Source: Picocystis sp. L7
Lineage: Eukaryota; Chlorophyta; Picocystophyceae; Picocystales; Picocystaceae
DNA length: 64,000 nt
NCBI GenBank assembly: GCA_020975725.1
Contig: QXJR01000007.1
Coordinates: forward strand, 558,001 to 622,000
Reading direction: 5' to 3'
Shown here: positions 2-9,174 of the stretch, piece after piece
How positions within the stretch are numbered: the stretch's first letter is position 1
Layout: each line of letters begins with the position of its first letter
Position numbers and translations under genes: made by a program
Notes under the pieces: generated by a model
The model's database searches: none
Seen by the model: the letters and a program-made list of their open reading frames with translations, nothing else
Told to the model about the DNA's origin: nothing

Positions 2-3000
2 AAGAGTCTATCTGTATGCAATGTTTCCCTGCCCTCGTCTCTTACGCCTGGTGGAGCTCCTATTAGTGGAGGGTTATATGATCCTCACATGGGCCCTTTG
101 GATCCTGCATCGGGGCCGTGTGCAACATGTGGGCTCCTGCACTCTCGTTGCCCGGGCCACTGTGGGAGAGTTGACCTTCCTTTACCGGTGATGCACCCTC
201 TTGCTGCCTCAGACGCCTTGAAAATTTTGAGGGGCACTTGTTTCAAATGCTTCTATTTTCGCAAGAAGAATGCATATACTACTGACAAAGTTTGCGAGCT
301 GAATGAACCTGGCCGCCCAAGCATTGGGGATGCAGCAAACGGTAGCCTTAACACAGAGGATGGGGATGAAGGAGGTGATGAACAAGGACTTCTGGTAGCA
401 AGTCGCAAAAGGAATACACAAAAGAGAATGCTAGCAATGGAAAGAATCAAGGCCTCACGGATTTCGAAATGTGAGCACTGTGGCGCGCACTCCCCGGGAG
501 TCAAAAAGGATAGTTCAACACGCTTCGCTCTCGCAGCTCTACCAGCCAAACAGGCCCAAGAAAACTTGGCGAACGGACATGTTCTGCAGATCTTAATAGA
601 CAGAGAAGATGGCGATGTGCAGGGGGAAGTTGATGCACTTCTCAATGAAGATCTGAGTGCAGAAAACAGAGATTTTCGCAAGTCACGAGTCCTCACAGCA
701 CTCGAGATTGAAAGAATTTTTGAAAAACTTTGGGCCAACGAAAGGAAAACATGCACATCCATCTGGAAGGAGGTAAATGGAACCTATTCGTCATCGTCTC
801 CTGGTTTCATTTTTATTCGCACACTGGTCGTCCCACCAAATAAATTCCGGCCACCGTCATTTCTGGATGGTAGGATGTATGAAAATGTACAGAACACACA
901 CTATGGTAACATCATTGAAGCAGCATTCAAAATTCAACAGTACGGAGGTGGACATGCGGATGAACCACCCAACGTCGAGAAAGTTTTGTCTGCTTGGATA
1001 GAGATGCAGGATGCAGTCAACTCTCTGATCGATTCCGCAAGCTCTGAAAAAAATAATGCTGCCAAGGAAGCATCTCCTGGTATTCGCCAGCAATTGGATC
1101 GGAAGGAAGGATTATTTCGAAAAAACATGATGGGGAAGAGAGTTAACTATGCTGCACGGTCGGTCATTAGCCCGGATCCTATGATTGCAACATCTGAAAT
1201 AGGGGTTCCTCCTTTTTTTGCAATGAGGTTGAGTTATCCTGAGGGGGTCTGCCACTGGAATGTGCAAATGCTACGCAAGCTGGTTGAGAATGGGCCTAAT
1301 GTGCACCCAGGTGCAGTTGCTGTGGAAGATGAGCAGGGCCGGGTCATAAACCTTGCAAGCCTGAGCCAGCAGCAGCGACAAGCGCTTGCAGCAAGACTGA
1401 CGTCTACTTCTATGGTGAATAAGCCAGGTTGGTCCACAATAAATTCACATGAAAATCAAACCATGCCAGCTTCAAAGTTCAAGGTCGTGTATCGGCATAT
1501 GAGGGATGGCGATATTATGCTGGTCAATCGACAACCAACTTTGCATAAGCCCGGTATCATGGCCCACACAGTCAAGGTCATTAACACTGGACAGCGCACT
1601 ATAAGGCTGCACTATGCAAATTGCAGTACGTACAATGCAGATTTTGATGGGGATGAAATCAACTTGCACCTTCCACAAGATGTCATAGGCAGAGCAGAAG
1701 GCTATGGGATTGTGAGTGCTGACGAACAATACGTAAGCCCTACTGCAGGGGCTCCCTTGAGGGGACTTATCCAGGACCACGTTGTAGGTGCTGTTCTACT
1801 TACAAAGCGTGATGCTTTATTTACCAAAGAGCAATATGCTCAGCTACTTTATGTGGCATGTGGGCATGCTCTTGGAGGTGGTGTCGCCAACTTTGCAGCT
1901 TCCAAAAAAAACTTGAAGAGCTCAATCTCTCTGTCGCCGCCGGCTTTGGTAAAGCCAGTGTGTAGATGGACAGGCAAGCAGGTGCTTGAGGCAGTAGTTG
2001 GGTTCATTGCAGGTGGGCTTCCACCGCTAACATTTTCGTCAGGTTCAAAGATTCCACTGGGTTATTGGGGGAAAGACAGCTTGGAGGATAAATTTTGTTT
2101 CGTTGACGGTAAGTTTTCTCCTTTGTTGTGAACTTCAATGCTCACCGTGTGAATGATAGTAAACCGTCTCACTTGGCCCAAGTTAGCTAAGCTACGCTGT
2201 GCCACCAACTTTTTTTCCAAGCCCTTTGACACACGTGTAGTAATGTCGTACTTGTCTTAGCGTAGGTACGGATTGAATACTTACTGACCTGTTCCCTGCA
2301 CTGTGCTGCAAACGTTTCTCGATTAATCAGGGTGCCTGGTGCATGGAGTTTTTGACAAGGCACAGTTTGGCAGCTTTGGCTTGGTTCATGCAGTGCATGA
2401 AATGTATGGCCCCACAGCTGCAGGGGAGTTGTTGTCTGCACTTTCGCGTTTGATGACTTGCTACTTGCAGTGGCATGGTATGACATGTGGATTGGACGAT
2501 ATGATCATTCAACATTCTGCAGAGAAGGAGCGGGCAGTGCAGTTGTGCAGAGCAGATGAAACTGCAGCATCTGCTATTGCAGAGTTTGTAGGTGGGAATA
2601 AAGCTGAATTGGAATCTCAAATTAGTAGCAGAAACTTGACTACCAAGCTTGAAGAGTTGCTTCTCAGAAGACCTGGGGACGAATCTGTTCTTGACATGAA
2701 GGTGTCTAGTTCCTTAAACCCTATCACATCTGGAATTATCAAGTCCTGCATACCAAACGGGCAGCTGAAGTCTTTTCCTGAGAATTGTCTGAGTCTCATG
2801 ACTATGACAGGAGCTAAAGGAAGTTTAGTCAATTTCTCCCAAATTTCATCACTTCTTGGACAGCAAGAGCTTGAAGGACGGCGTGTCCCTAGGATGGCCA
2901 GTGGAAAGACTCTTCCTTGCTTCCGGCCGTGGGATCTAAGTGCCAGGTCAGGAGGTTTCATTGGAGATCGTTTTTTATCTGGTTTGAAACCACAGGAATA

Positions 3001-4966
3001 TTACTTTCATTGTATGGCTGGTCGTGATGGCCTTGTGGACACAACAGTCAAAACATCCAGGTCGGGCTATTTGCAGCGATGTCTAGTAAAGAACTTGGAA
3101 ACCCTAGTAGTACAGTATGACCATACTGTGAGGGACTGTGATGGAAGTGTCATTCAATTTCAGTATGGAGAAGATGCTTTGGATCCAAGTAAGGTGCCAT
3201 ACCTGAACAAATTTTCCTTCATCTTGCAAAATGCAAGACAAGCTGCCATCAATGTGGGAATGGATGGTTTCAAGTGGTCGAAACTGGATCAACAGCAGGG
3301 TACTGGAGCACATAACCCTGTGTGTGGCAACCTACCTTGCCTTGCAACAAACTTCCCCACTGCACTGGGAGCAGTGTCAGACCTTTTTCGGCAATCCTTA
3401 ACTGATTACCTGCAAACCAATCCGGATAAGCTCCTTCAAGAGGGAACATTACAGCATCAGCCAGTGAAGGAGAATTTGTCTGAAGAACGCTTTTTAAAGC
3501 TAATGGAACTACGATATATGAAATCCCTTGCGTCGCCAGGCGAGTCTGTGGGTGTAATTGCAGCACAAAGTATCGGAGAGCCTTCAACCCAGATGACTCT
3601 GAATACTTTTCACTTCGCTGGCAGGGGTGAAGCAAATGTGACCCTAGGGATTCCAAGGTTGAGAGAGATCCTCATGGTTGCATCCCAAAATATGAAGACC
3701 CCAGTAATGAGTCTACCTTTAGTTGAAAACGATTCCCAAAGAAAATGTCTTGCCAACGCAGAAGAACTAGCACATCGATTGAGAAAGGTGAGATTGGCAG
3801 AAGTCCTCTCAGAATTGGTTGTGTTTGAATTTCCTTGTGTTCGCAATGGGACAATGCGGGAGTATCAAATTCAAATGAATTTTCAGCAGGAGGAGGATTA
3901 CAAACAAGTAGCTCACATACCTTTCGCCCGCATTGCTGAGGTTTTCAAAACCACATTTTGTGGTCAAGTTAAATACCTCTTGTCTTTGGAAGTACGAAAA
4001 AGCTCTTTGAAGGGGCTTCAGAATGTTGATGTTCCCACCACAAAGGCTGCAGACAGAGCAGACAAAGTAGAACCTGACAAGTCGGAAGACAACGTCGAGA
4101 AGAAAGAAGGCCACCAGTGTCCACCCATTGACGATGAGGAAGAGGAAGAGGAGGAAGAGGAGGATGGTGATAAAGAATCTGCTAAAGAAGCATTCCGAGA
4201 TTCTTTCCGCAAAGCCTCGTATCAGGATGAAGATGAAGATGATACAGCTGCAAAGAAAGGCACGCATAAGCTGACTGAAGTGAAAGAGCAGGAGGATACC
4301 GACGAGCAGTCTTTCATGGAAGGCAATGAAATGGAAATTATCAAAGTGGATGAAAAGAAGAAAGCATGCCAACTTTCTCTCTTCATGCCCATAGATGCAC
4401 CAAAGCTGCTGATGTTAGAAATAGTCGAGAAGGCAGCTGTAAAATCCGTGTTGTTAAGCACAGATGACATTGAAAAGGCTTTGGTGGTGGGAAGCAGTCT
4501 AGGCAACACTTTTCCTATTGTCCAGACTGAGGGTGTCAACTTGCAAGCAATGTGGAAGCACCATGATTTGATTGACGTACACAATATCCGGACAAATGAC
4601 ATCCATGCTGTACTTCAAACCTATGGAGTCGAAGCAGCAAGAGCATGTATTGCTTCAGAAGTAAAAGACGTCTTTGATGCATATGGCATCAACGTTGACG
4701 CTCGGCATCTTAGTCTCATTTCTGACTTCATGACAGTGGATGGTACTTATCGTGCATTTAGCAGATTGGGTATTCAAGCTGCAAGTAGCCCAATCTTAAA
4801 GATGAGCTTTGAGACAGCAACAAAATTCCTTGTGGATGCCTCTCTATACGGTGAGCAGGATCAGCTGCGCTCTCCATCTTCAAGGATCACTTTAGGACAG
4901 GTTGCAAAGCTTGGCACTGGCATGTGCGATGTCTTGCTAGACCTGGCCATGTCAACACACAGTTGA
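2..4966 (+). CDS. RPA1: RNA polymerase I largest subunit (RPA1/RPA190), 5' end cut by window edge
   Basis: Catalytic largest subunit of nucleolar RNA polymerase I, which makes pre-rRNA. The frame is open from base 2, so the true start lies to the left; about 1580 residues are visible against roughly 1660 in yeast RPA190. Seen in order: the N-terminal clamp zinc site (CATCGLLHSRCPGHCG, from about base 116), the catalytic Mg motif NADFDGDE at 1634-1657, the trigger-loop region (SPGESVGVIAAQSIGEPSTQ, from about 3535), and a very acidic stretch around 4130-4200 typical of the Pol I jaw insertion. One intron, 2109-2330 (gtaagt...cag, phase 1), joins FVDG to CLVHGVFDKAQFG. The GGLYDP...GPLD context just after the window start and the FDKAQFG motif fit RPA1 rather than the Pol II or Pol III subunit. 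Ends with TGA at 4964-4966. Confidence 0.95.
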
Positions 4967-6346: not shown

Positions 6347-7675
6347 GTTAGTACAACATCGAGTGCTTAACGAGCACGATTCAATAAATATGCCTACACT
6401 TCCAAATTTGCACCAAGGACTCCCACCATTGCACGTTTTGCCAATTGGAACCCTTGACCTAACCCATCCTTTTCAATATGGCCACCTTGTTCGAGGAAAT
6501 CCTCGCTATGGTGCGGATAATCTTTCGTCACTTGATCCCAATATTCTGTCCATTCAAGAAGGCAAGTGCTCATGGATAGCCCATGGTAGGGAAAATGCCA
6601 AGGATGCCCGATTCTCAGATTTCGTAACTAGACATTCCTTGGTCAATGATTGGACTTATGGGGAGTCTTAGGGGTGCCGTCTAATCCGTCACATATTCCT
6701 TTGCTTAGCAAGTTTCCTTTTCATCAAGAATTTGGTTAATATAATAGGTGGCACCATCCTTTACTTGATATACCATTGATTTTAATGCAAGCATGTGTTT
6801 GAATCCGACCTATAACTTGTGGCATGTAAGATTGTGCAAGAATATTGCCCATGTCGCGGGCTTCGGAATGTTTCACCTCGTTTCACCTAGCTATGAACAA
6901 GGAGAAGTCGGGACGAATAAAGTTAAACAACGCCACGCCAAAGATGCGAGAGTAAGAACAAGTTACAAGCACACTGCATTCCCTTGGGTTTCATGAGTGA
7001 ATCTCGTCAAAAGGGCCTACTACCGCCCCATGCCCACTAAGCATTGCCCATTGAAATAATGTAAGTGTCTTTGGTATAATTTCGAGATATTTGTTCGATG
7101 AAGTGACACATTGTAGGGATGGATGCTCCGTCACAACACTCTTGCACATACTTGTATCAGAAGGGCAAGATTGATGCCAATATGCCAACAAGTTTGGCTA
7201 TCATTGACGGCAAAATATACACAACGCTCTTTCTTGACTCGAAGATTCCTTAAAATCGCCAATAACACGTGCACGTTCCTACGCACTGGCGAAACTGGAA
7301 GCTAGGTGCTAATTTACAATTAGCCAATCTTATGGCAAGGAAAACGATGAAGGGGGCGGGACATTTTTATACCATTCATTGAAGCATTTTGAATGACGAT
7401 TTTTGGCATCATCCTCTCGTGTACAACTCGGACGCAATACATGCACCACTTCATGAAAACGGGCTAGAAGGGCTTTCAACTGAAGGTACTCCGGAAGAAG
7501 TTTCAACAATCAACAACGAGTTTAGGTCACGTGGGGCTTCGCTCTTTTGTGCTTCGAATTCTCGAAGGTAATTGCGAAACAGAAGCTACTATTTCAGCAT
7601 TCCACGAAGCAACAACGATCGACTCCTTTTCGCGGGGAGCGATGCCGTTCACGTAGGACAGACATGTGTTCGAAT

Positions 7676-7679
7676 AAAA
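7676..7679 (-). terminator. Pol III T-run after the permuted tRNA
   Basis: On the minus strand a TTTT run lies 25 nt beyond the last base of the tRNA 5' half (7704). This is the usual RNA polymerase III stop signal and sets the likely 3' end of the precursor. Confidence 0.5.
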
Positions 7680-7703
7680 GGGAACTCCTCGCATGCCTTC
7701 GAC

Positions 7704-7830
7704 CTTAAGTCCCTCTCCTTAACCACTCGGACATGTTGACAACCCACGTCCGGCTGGCCGGCAACCTATTGGTACGACTGATATGTCAACAGTGGGGTTC
7801 GAACCCACGCGCACTGTACGTGCAAGGGAT
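7704..7830 (-). tRNA. Permuted tRNA-Leu(UAA): 3' half lies upstream of 5' half
   Basis: Read on the minus strand, the 3' half comes first (7830 down to 7784), then a 43-nt spacer (7783-7741), then the 5' half (7740-7704). The 5' half is exactly 37 nt: acceptor GTCAACA, TG, D-arm TCC/GGA with loop GAGTGGTTAA, G26, anticodon stem AGGGA, then CTTAAG (anticodon TAA). The 3' half is A38, stem TCCCT, a 16-nt variable arm with a GCAC/GTGC stem, T-arm GTGGG-TTCGAAC-CCCAC, acceptor TGTTGAC and discriminator A. Acceptor (7/7), anticodon (5/5), T (5/5) and D (3/3) stems pair fully only when the halves are joined across the spacer. The break falls between positions 37 and 38, the usual tRNA intron site. 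The long variable arm and A73 fit Leu rather than Ser. CCA is not encoded. A TTTT run (7679-7676) follows the 5' half. Confidence 0.88.
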
Positions 7831-7903
7831 TTCTCCCACCCGATCTCCGGGTGACTGCGAGCGTATCATGGGCATAAAAGTCCAATTTTGGGACTTAACA
7901 CAA

Positions 7904-7911
7904 TTTTATAC
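7904..7911 (-). promoter_or_regulatory. TATA-like box upstream of the permuted tRNA
   Basis: The minus strand reads AGTATAAAATTG about 75 nt upstream of the tRNA 3' half. In the permuted order the B box (in the T-arm, about 7794-7805) precedes the A box (TGTCCGAGTGG, 7733-7723), so an upstream TATA element could help place Pol III. This is an inference from sequence only. Confidence 0.3.
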
Positions 7912-8280
7912 TGTTACTAAATCCCCTACTGGCGCCGGTTTCGTTCAACACCCTTCCAATCCCGCTATGAGCTTGAAACGACGAACAAGCGATCGCAAGT
8001 TCGAGAGGAAAACAGGCTACGTCAACCATACGTCAGCGCAGCTACGGTTCGCTTAGCGTCAAGAGCGTCGCCACCGACAGGGGAAACCATGGAAGTGCTT
8101 TACCCCGGCAGAATGGTACCTAAGGTGCATCGTCTACGTCTTTGAACACACGATGAAATGACCACAGATACTTGGCATCAAACAAGGCGTAAATAATCGG
8201 AAATTTCATGAGAATGATACGTGTCCGAAATGAGAATGCAAGTGTATGCATCCGTTTTATTCAATCGTACCAGGCAATAC

Positions 8281-8988
8281 TTACTCTGGAGGCGAGGGCT
8301 TACGTTGTTTGCCGTAAATGTCCAATTCGTCATCGACGTTGTGTAGGGTTGGTCGTGATTGAGGCGCATTTCCATCCGCTAGCATCGAGGACTTGAATTC
8401 TTCCCAAATCTGTGCAATGAAACCAACTTTGTATGTCAGAAATCCCAGCAGCAGTCCCCCGCCACTCATTCCTTCGCCGACACCCCATTTGTTCCATGTA
8501 CTGTACATCAGCGCAAGAGCGGCAGGTATGAGCAAACGCTCGTTGAGTAGTGCCAACTTGGATCCCTCAAATACTTTCAGCATCAACTTCGGAACCGCTC
8601 CTTGAACCCTTGAAACACCTTCGAATCCTTGGAGCCTTTCAGACGAATACTCTTCAACGCTCTTCGTGAGCAAGAGCAGGTACAAGGTCGCCCCCGCTGT
8701 GCCGAGGGCAAAGCTGGCACCAACCGCATTTCCGAAGCCTATCAGGCAATACCCCGTGCCCACAGCCGATGCTAATGCCGTTCGTTCGAAGATTCTCTGT
8801 TTGAGTGCCTCGAATTCCGGAAGCTTTCCTTTCACCCTCGACGGTCTCGTCGTCGAGGCTTCCGTTGTCCTTGCGATCGCCCTCCCTCGCCGACCGCCAC
8901 CCGGACCACGACGTGTTCGCGTTCGCTTGTTCTTGTCTCCCAGTCCCACCACGGTCGTCTTCCTTCTCCCACCACAAGCGGTGGCCAT
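8281..8988 (-). CDS. Plastid-type multi-pass membrane protein, AtpI/CGL160-like candidate
   Basis: A 235-residue protein from the ATG at 8988 (MATACGGRRKTT). The same frame is open further upstream to 9150 but that part looks like 5' leader. The first ~65 residues are Arg/Ser/Thr-rich and lack acidic residues, as in a chloroplast transit peptide. Four hydrophobic segments follow: a pair around LIGFGNAVGASFALGTAGA and LYLLLLTKSVEEY, and a later pair around LLIPAALALMY and GLLLGFLTYKVGFIAQI. The motif LYLLLLTKSVE resembles the AtpI family and the green-lineage CGL160 protein that helps assemble the chloroplast ATP synthase. The match is by eye and moderate; an unrelated plastid envelope or thylakoid protein is possible. 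It lies tail-to-head with the SDR gene on the same strand. Confidence 0.65.
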   Translation of the reverse strand: MATACGGRRKTTVVGLGDKNKRTRTRRGPGGGRRGRAIARTTEASTTRPSRVKGKLPEFEALKQRIFERTALASAVGTGYCLIGFGNAVGASFALGTAGATLYLLLLTKSVEEYSSERLQGFEGVSRVQGAVPKLMLKVFEGSKLALLNERLLIPAALALMYSTWNKWGVGEGMSGGGLLLGFLTYKVGFIAQIWEEFKSSMLADGNAPQSRPTLHNVDDELDIYGKQRKPSPPE

Positions 8989-9174
8989 CTGCGCAAAGTC
9001 GACGCGCTCTCCAGTCCGAGGCGGCGAAACGAAACTGCGCTTCAGAATCCAGCTCGTTCCCAATCTCCACCGGGGTGGGGATGGAAAACTGGGTTCCGAA
9101 GGAGGCACTGGTGCGGGACTGGAGCATCCTCGATCCTCCGATCCATCCAACGATGAACCGACTTCCCTTCGTTT

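Follow-up and report, generated by a model that had tools for sequence, protein, structure and literature searches.

On the minus strand of the window (the whole 64,000-nucleotide stretch that was analysed, which lies on contig C5 of a 20.5-Mb assembly of 30 contigs), the halves of a tRNA-Leu(UAA) occur in reversed order: the 3' half (7830-7784) comes first, followed by 43 nt and then by the 5' half (7740-7704). Long reading frames flank the locus at 2339-4966 (plus strand, RPA190) and at 8281-9150 (minus strand), and shorter frames overlap it. Read 5' to 3', its parts are:

7904..7910, minus strand: TATAAAA, on a weak basis a possible upstream Pol III element, 80 nt 5' of the 3' half
7856..7861, minus strand: leader strand CTCGCA, complement of trailer 7693-7688 and paired with it in the minimum-energy fold
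7837..7853, minus strand: leader hairpin CACCCG...CGGGTG, present in the fold in which the stems of the permuted tRNA are forced
7833..7836, minus strand: leader bases -6 to -3, opposite anticodon-loop bases 35 to 32 (3 of 4 pairs), a putative central helix of bulge-helix-bulge-like form
7784..7830, minus strand: 3' half, 47 nt, with A38, the anticodon 3' strand, a long variable arm, the T arm with the B box, the acceptor 3' strand and A73
7741..7783, minus strand: 43-nt intervening sequence, whose predicted excision by RNase P and tRNase Z would follow circularisation
7704..7740, minus strand: 5' half, 37 nt, with the acceptor 5' strand, the D arm with the A box, the anticodon 5' strand, the anticodon TAA (7707-7705) and G37
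7688..7693, minus strand: trailer strand TGCGAG, complement of leader 7861-7856 by sequence match
7676..7679, minus strand: TTTT, a likely Pol III terminator, 25 nt 3' of the 5' half

The 3' half terminates in the discriminator base, A73, and the 5' half in G37. In this genome, a TATA-like string is found between -15 and -70 for 7 of 28 normal nuclear tRNA genes; the TATAAAA of the permuted gene, at -80, lies beyond this range and is untypical of the genome's tRNA genes. A TTTT at most 60 nt downstream is found for 21 of the same 28 genes and for three of the four permuted genes described below, the fourth having it at +67, while at the locus itself minus-strand TTTT occurs within 7500-8100 at 8012, 7879 and 7679 only, with none between the halves. 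The D arm of the gene (window 7733-7715, TGTCCGAGTGGTTAAGGAG) is nearly the same as in Ser(AGA), Ser(CGA) and Ser(TGA); its resemblance to the D arms of the three normal-order Leu genes seen is weaker.

When the halves are rejoined in swapped order, the resulting 84 nt form a cloverleaf with an acceptor stem of 7/7 pairs, an anticodon stem of 5/5, a T stem of 5/5, a D stem of 3 bp, a long variable arm and the anticodon UAA, and ARAGORN calls it tRNA-Leu(taa). The minimum-energy fold of the rejoined RNA contains the T and D stems and has a z-score of -2.3, equalled by 5 of 200 shuffled sequences. The unaltered window, in contrast, yields no tRNA with ARAGORN, whether introns are allowed or not, and no Rfam match at gathering scores; with E values up to 10 admitted, the sole sub-threshold match to the locus is a plastid 3'UTR on the opposite strand. 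The initial annotation, which had proposed a permuted tRNA-Leu(UAA) gene here, is borne out in its coordinates, in the swapped order of halves lying 43 nt apart on the minus strand, in the closing of all four stems when they are exchanged and in the placing of the junction at 37/38, with a 5' half of exactly 37 nt that ends at G37 and a 3' half that starts at A38. Its further observation that GTCAACA and TGTTGAC have no second partner nearby also holds, each occurring once per strand in 7500-8100 as the two strands of one pair of sites. The leader hairpin and the match between leader and trailer are likewise present as it described them, and the case made here is independent of both.

A more quantitative line of evidence comes from a covariance model of a tRNA permuted at 37/38, termed R2, whose input was 20 of the genome's normal nuclear tRNAs with their halves swapped, Leu(UAA) being left out. 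R2 matches the window at 7704-7819 on the minus strand with 29.2 bits (E 2.9e-7), its second-best match in the window being a bare T arm (E 0.81). The sister model R1, which has the Leu(UAA) gene as one of its rows, gives 38.8 bits in the window, a score that is not independent for that reason, as the score of R2 is. Since normal-order tRNA genes can match R1 partially, with up to 19.8 bits and E 1.8e-5, the E-values of such models need to be read with care. A structural scan asking for a T stem of 5/5, an acceptor of 7/7 in swapped order, the conserved D-arm bases and an anticodon stem of 5/5 with a 37/38 junction finds one site in the window and none in 100 windows randomised with a first-order Markov model.

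The reading of this locus as the source of the cell's tRNA-Leu(UAA) depends in part on whether the gene exists elsewhere in ordinary form, the case that the initial annotation, provided that the permuted copy was silent, had named as refuting its proposal. BLAST of the mature 84 nt against the 20.5-Mb assembly finds no normal-order copy at its sensitivity, the sole match being the permuted locus itself in two swapped pieces. Normal-order genes with class II D-arm patterns were found for Leu(TAG), Leu(AAG), Leu(CAG), Ser(GCT) and Ser(TGA), and none of the five decodes UUA, which for the three Leu anticodons TAG, AAG and CAG follows from established decoding rules. Codons of this kind are in use: across nine of the window's long reading frames (open reading frames rather than curated genes), 36 of 6408 codons are UUA. 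As UUA is used and no other reader of it was found in the assembly, the permuted Leu(UAA) gene is, on this reckoning from codons and genes, likely to be essential.

The gene does not stand alone, as a partial survey of the same genome revealed three further nuclear tRNA genes permuted at 37/38:

Arg(UCU), L078, on C4 near 241,300: intervening sequence 33 nt; R1 61.6 bits, R2 58.7 bits (E 4.6e-17)
Ser(CGA), L106, on C10 near 633,400: intervening sequence 44 nt; R2 32.9 bits (E 1.8e-8)
Ser(AGA), L105, on C1 near 1,333,200: intervening sequence 83 nt; recognised by its stems, the ARAGORN call and the structural scan

The last of these is aligned in full by neither model, R1 giving 13.5 bits and R2 only the T arm. 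All four permuted genes have a 5' half of 37 nt, a 3' half that opens with A38, an acceptor stem of 7/7 and an anticodon stem of 5/5. Applied to the window and 145 loci (358,894 bases, including overlaps and copies of the Leu(UAA) locus), the structural scan returns these four genes only. The presence of three additional permuted genes makes a one-off accident or an error of assembly unlikely. B-box-like strings are, it is true, very common in this genome (GGTTCGAAYCC occurs at 338 places, against 12 for the reversed-pattern control), which is what a chance juxtaposition of tRNA-like pieces would draw upon, and a misassembly could in principle swap the halves of an ordinary gene. Set against this, none of the 100 randomised windows contains such a site, and the four loci lie on four contigs, with acceptor and anticodon strands that differ in sequence from locus to locus yet are complementary within each; we consider both chance and misassembly extremely improbable.

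The survey drew on several searches of differing reach. A genome search with RF00005 produced 710 first-look candidates, 63 of which were scored, and, having missed tRNAs that were seen otherwise, it provides a lower bound. The pattern GGGTTCRANNCCY occurs at 199 places, compared with 25 for its control, and from the places listed (C1 to C15) 50 were taken, chosen so as to be without known tRNAs, repeats or doubtful T loops. R1 has 26 matches in the first 40 of these loci, of which L078, with 61.6 bits, is alone in being full-length with all arms, the others reaching 13.6 bits or less; the last 10 loci contain no permuted gene. For GGTTCGAAYCC the places listed are those of C1 to C8, and they include 14 AATCC forms, two within the 50 and 12 extra, with no permuted gene in the 12. 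Four other patterns were followed at 6 of 8 places (control 7), 8 of 27 (control 47), 4 of 5 (control 2) and 2 of 3 (control 0); what was left over is the Leu(UAA) gene and an organelle place for the 8-place pattern, an organelle contig for the 5-place pattern and L078 for the 3-place pattern. Contigs C16 to C28 were reached by BLAST, RF00005, PF01974 and these four patterns only. Two features of the sequences themselves came to light in this work. The palindrome GGTTCGAACC is strongly over-represented in the genome, being contained in all but 14 of the GGTTCGAAYCC places listed (for example at C1:257600-257611 and C7:303163-303195), and in the window it occurs only in the tRNA-Leu(UAA), at 7796-7805. 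At C3:259983-277222 there is a tandem array in which one B-box-like match occurs eight times, at intervals of about 2,461 bases.

In this partial census, the nuclear tRNA genes seen number 33, comprising 28 plain genes, one with an intron and the four permuted ones. The gene with the intron is that of the initiator Met tRNA (L110, C19:258899-259300), which is in normal order and carries an 18-nt intron at 37/38 that keeps a G at -3; an intron in an initiator Met tRNA gene is unusual. Outside the 33 stands a possible gene for tRNA-His(GTG) (L132, C15:357674-358016), which ARAGORN calls, with an intron of 29 nt, only when introns are allowed. The Thr(CGT), Val(TAC), Ala(TGC) and initiator Met genes (L049, L054, L059 and L110) have A in place of T at the first position of the T loop (ATCGA).

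Opposite loop bases 32-35, leader bases -3 to -6 would form the central helix of a bulge-helix-bulge splice site. Pairing between them is seen at 3 of 4 positions in Leu and at 4 of 4 in each of Arg(UCU), Ser(CGA) and Ser(AGA), giving 15 of 16 pairs in total; the weakest of these helices is that of Leu(UAA), which has a G-U pair and an A-G mismatch. The pair C32-G(-3), which we take to be the anticodon-intron pair of eukaryotic tRNA splicing, is present in all four permuted genes and in the initiator Met intron, for which 3 of the 4 positions pair. Loop bases 34-35 vary among the permuted genes, and the leaders vary alongside. Upon reassigning the leaders among the four genes, 2 of 24 assignments, the true one included, score equally, and with the Met intron added 3 of 120 do so; the fit between leader and loop is therefore supporting rather than decisive evidence.

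The predicted fold of the precursor does not show this helix. In a calculation that excludes tertiary contacts and protein binding and was made for the Leu(UAA) gene, the naked precursor (7861-7688) reaches -68.9 kcal/mol, as opposed to -60.5 kcal/mol with the stems of the permuted tRNA forced, a difference of 8.4 kcal/mol in favour of the other fold. Pair probabilities in this precursor are about 0.002-0.003 for the acceptor and anticodon stems and 0.001 for C32-G(-3), and the central helix of Leu(UAA) is absent from the minimum-energy fold. The preference for another fold is what one might expect of a relic, a silent pseudogene that a rearrangement had left in permuted form, the real tRNA-Leu(UAA) lying elsewhere or being absent from the assembly. 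Yet a relic sits poorly with stems that are all intact, with a mature sequence that has no other BLAST match in 20.5 Mb, with normal-order Leu(TAG), Leu(AAG) and Leu(CAG) genes that do not read UUA and with three other permuted genes, likewise intact, in the same genome, and we regard this explanation as very improbable.

Apart from the splice-site helix, the sequence-level features are those of a type II (37/38) permuted gene and support the proposal of the initial annotation. The halves are swapped on one strand, the junction is at 37/38 and the 43-nt spacer falls within the 1-74 bp of the intervening sequences of 34 permuted genes listed in the available part of PMC3978253, while the genome encodes the relevant endonuclease family, with two matches to tRNA_int_endo (PF01974) above the cut-off (E 2.0e-21 and 8.2e-18); the lack of a normal-order gene with the same anticodon in the assembly, at BLAST sensitivity, is a supporting rather than a defining mark of the type. 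Judging from these features, we hold with high confidence that the locus is a functional, probably single-copy, type II (37/38) circularly permuted nuclear tRNA-Leu(UAA) gene of a chlorophyte green alga.

Because such a pathway is described for other algal permuted tRNAs in the part of PMC3978253 available to us, a course of maturation can be proposed by analogy, probably leading through a circular intermediate. RNA polymerase III would transcribe the whole unit from leader to trailer, with the 3' half, the intervening sequence and the 5' half between them, as one RNA. The tRNA-splicing endonuclease would then cut this RNA on the 3' side of G37 and on the 5' side of A38, leader and anticodon loop together forming the bulge-helix-bulge-like site. 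Ligation of G37 to A38 by tRNA ligase would give a circle, from the acceptor end of which RNase P and tRNase Z would remove the 43-nt intervening sequence, and addition of CCA would complete a tRNA able to read UUA codons. A different route would be that of a split tRNA, in which the halves are transcribed or processed separately and joined in trans without any circle, as are the split tRNAs of Nanoarchaeum. The sequence by itself fits joining in trans as well as it fits circle formation, and leader and trailer do carry pairing strands; the halves, on the other hand, share a strand and are separated by 43 nt that contain no TTTT, which is not the arrangement expected of separate transcription units, and according to the accessible part of PMC3978253 circular intermediates of permuted tRNAs have been observed in both red and green algae. 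We consider joining in trans more improbable still than a relic. On the evidence given above, the readings as chance, assembly error, pseudogene and split tRNA are all rejected in favour of a functional permuted gene.

The host was placed by its proteins. The RPA190 frame has 80% identity over 99% of its length to one related protein (source tag lgn) and 43% identity at 99% coverage to Volvox and Monoraphidium, higher identities further down the matches being those of short parts only. In a tree of 16 RPA190 rows, the query and this one relative fall inside an eight-row set together with Mantoniella, Volvox, Monoraphidium and three further rows (support 100/98); the pair stands among the chlorophytes, neither with Mantoniella nor within the group of Volvox and Monoraphidium, and the inner fork is not settled by the tree. 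ChlB has 100% and 84% identity to two proteins and 77% to the best named ones. By these comparisons of proteins, the host belongs to the green algae, and the collections searched hold no named organism closely related to it. The organelle contigs differ extremely in base composition: C30, the plastid contig, is AT-rich with 26% GC and carries photosystem, chlB/chlL/chlN and ndh-like genes (names read from translations), and C29, the mitochondrial contig, has 66% GC, with tRNA positions that suggest a unit of about 80.9 kb overrunning the contig ends.

Permuted tRNA-Leu(TAA) genes were reportedly described by Maruyama et al. in 2010 for Ostreococcus lucimarinus and Micromonas pusilla. Table 1 of PMC3978253, in the part available, lists both at 37/38, with intervening sequences of 25 bp and 20 bp, respectively. 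Compared by these table entries, they resemble the gene found here in anticodon, in type (II, 37/38), in having no intron listed and in being nuclear genes of green algae, and they differ in the length of the spacer (25 and 20 bp versus 43 nt) and in lineage. In the red alga Cyanidioschyzon merolae, Leu(TAA) is likewise permuted, but according to the same table its junction lies at 20/21 in the D loop and it has a 21-bp intron at 37/38; PMC13353863 offers only a citation of the C. merolae work. The three companion genes also have counterparts there, with permuted Ser(CGA) entered for Ostreococcus and Micromonas, Ser(AGA) for M. pusilla and Arg(TCT) for O. tauri, and the available part of the same paper further gives permuted Ser(CGA) and Ser(AGA) for the nucleomorph of Bigelowiella natans. 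As far as the accessible text of PMC4494063 goes, the same two Ser genes are permuted in the nucleomorph of Amorphochlora amoebiformis and are inferred for the green ancestor of chlorarachniophyte plastids, while in two chlorarachniophytes of the genus Lotharella no permuted tRNA was detected. Here, Ser(CGA) and Ser(AGA) are permuted at 37/38 too, with spacers of 44 and 83 nt compared with a maximum of 74 bp in the available part of the 2014 table. No further report of permuted tRNAs in green algae was recognised by title or abstract opening in the literature searched, which was mostly without subscription papers.

These distributions bear on whether permuted tRNA genes are old and inherited or have arisen repeatedly. 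Taken over the available portions of the sources, Ser(AGA) and/or Ser(CGA) permuted at 37/38 are common to this lineage, the Mamiellales and chlorarachniophyte nucleomorphs, and Leu(UAA) and Arg(UCU) are permuted both here and in the Mamiellales. That each of the four anticodons permuted here also belongs to the nine green-algal ones of the PMC3978253 table, as available, favours an inherited set, an argument weakened by the bias of our search patterns towards class II. Against inheritance, four tRNAs that are permuted in some Mamiellales, Cys(GCA), Asn(GTT), Ser(GCT) and Ser(TGA), have normal-order genes here, and PMC3978253, in its accessible part, finds no conservation of the permuted species between organisms and inclines towards independent origins. 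Tentatively, and with rather less than even confidence, we suggest that the permuted genes may be an inherited set, older than the divergence of this chlorophyte lineage, the Mamiellales and the green alga from which chlorarachniophyte nucleomorphs descend, permutation having been kept because leader and anticodon loop evolved jointly as one splice site.

A practical parallel is provided by another green alga, Auxenochlorella, where the tRNA set from an ordinary search was incomplete and permuted genes were then detected (PMC12633428, in the part available). In such genomes ordinary tRNA searches miss genes that are probably essential, as at the Leu(UAA) locus, where ARAGORN and Rfam are silent. 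A permuted Leu(UAA) gene with its junction at 37/38 has already been published, and what is new is the host, by which permuted tRNA genes are extended, with at least four of them, to another chlorophyte lineage.
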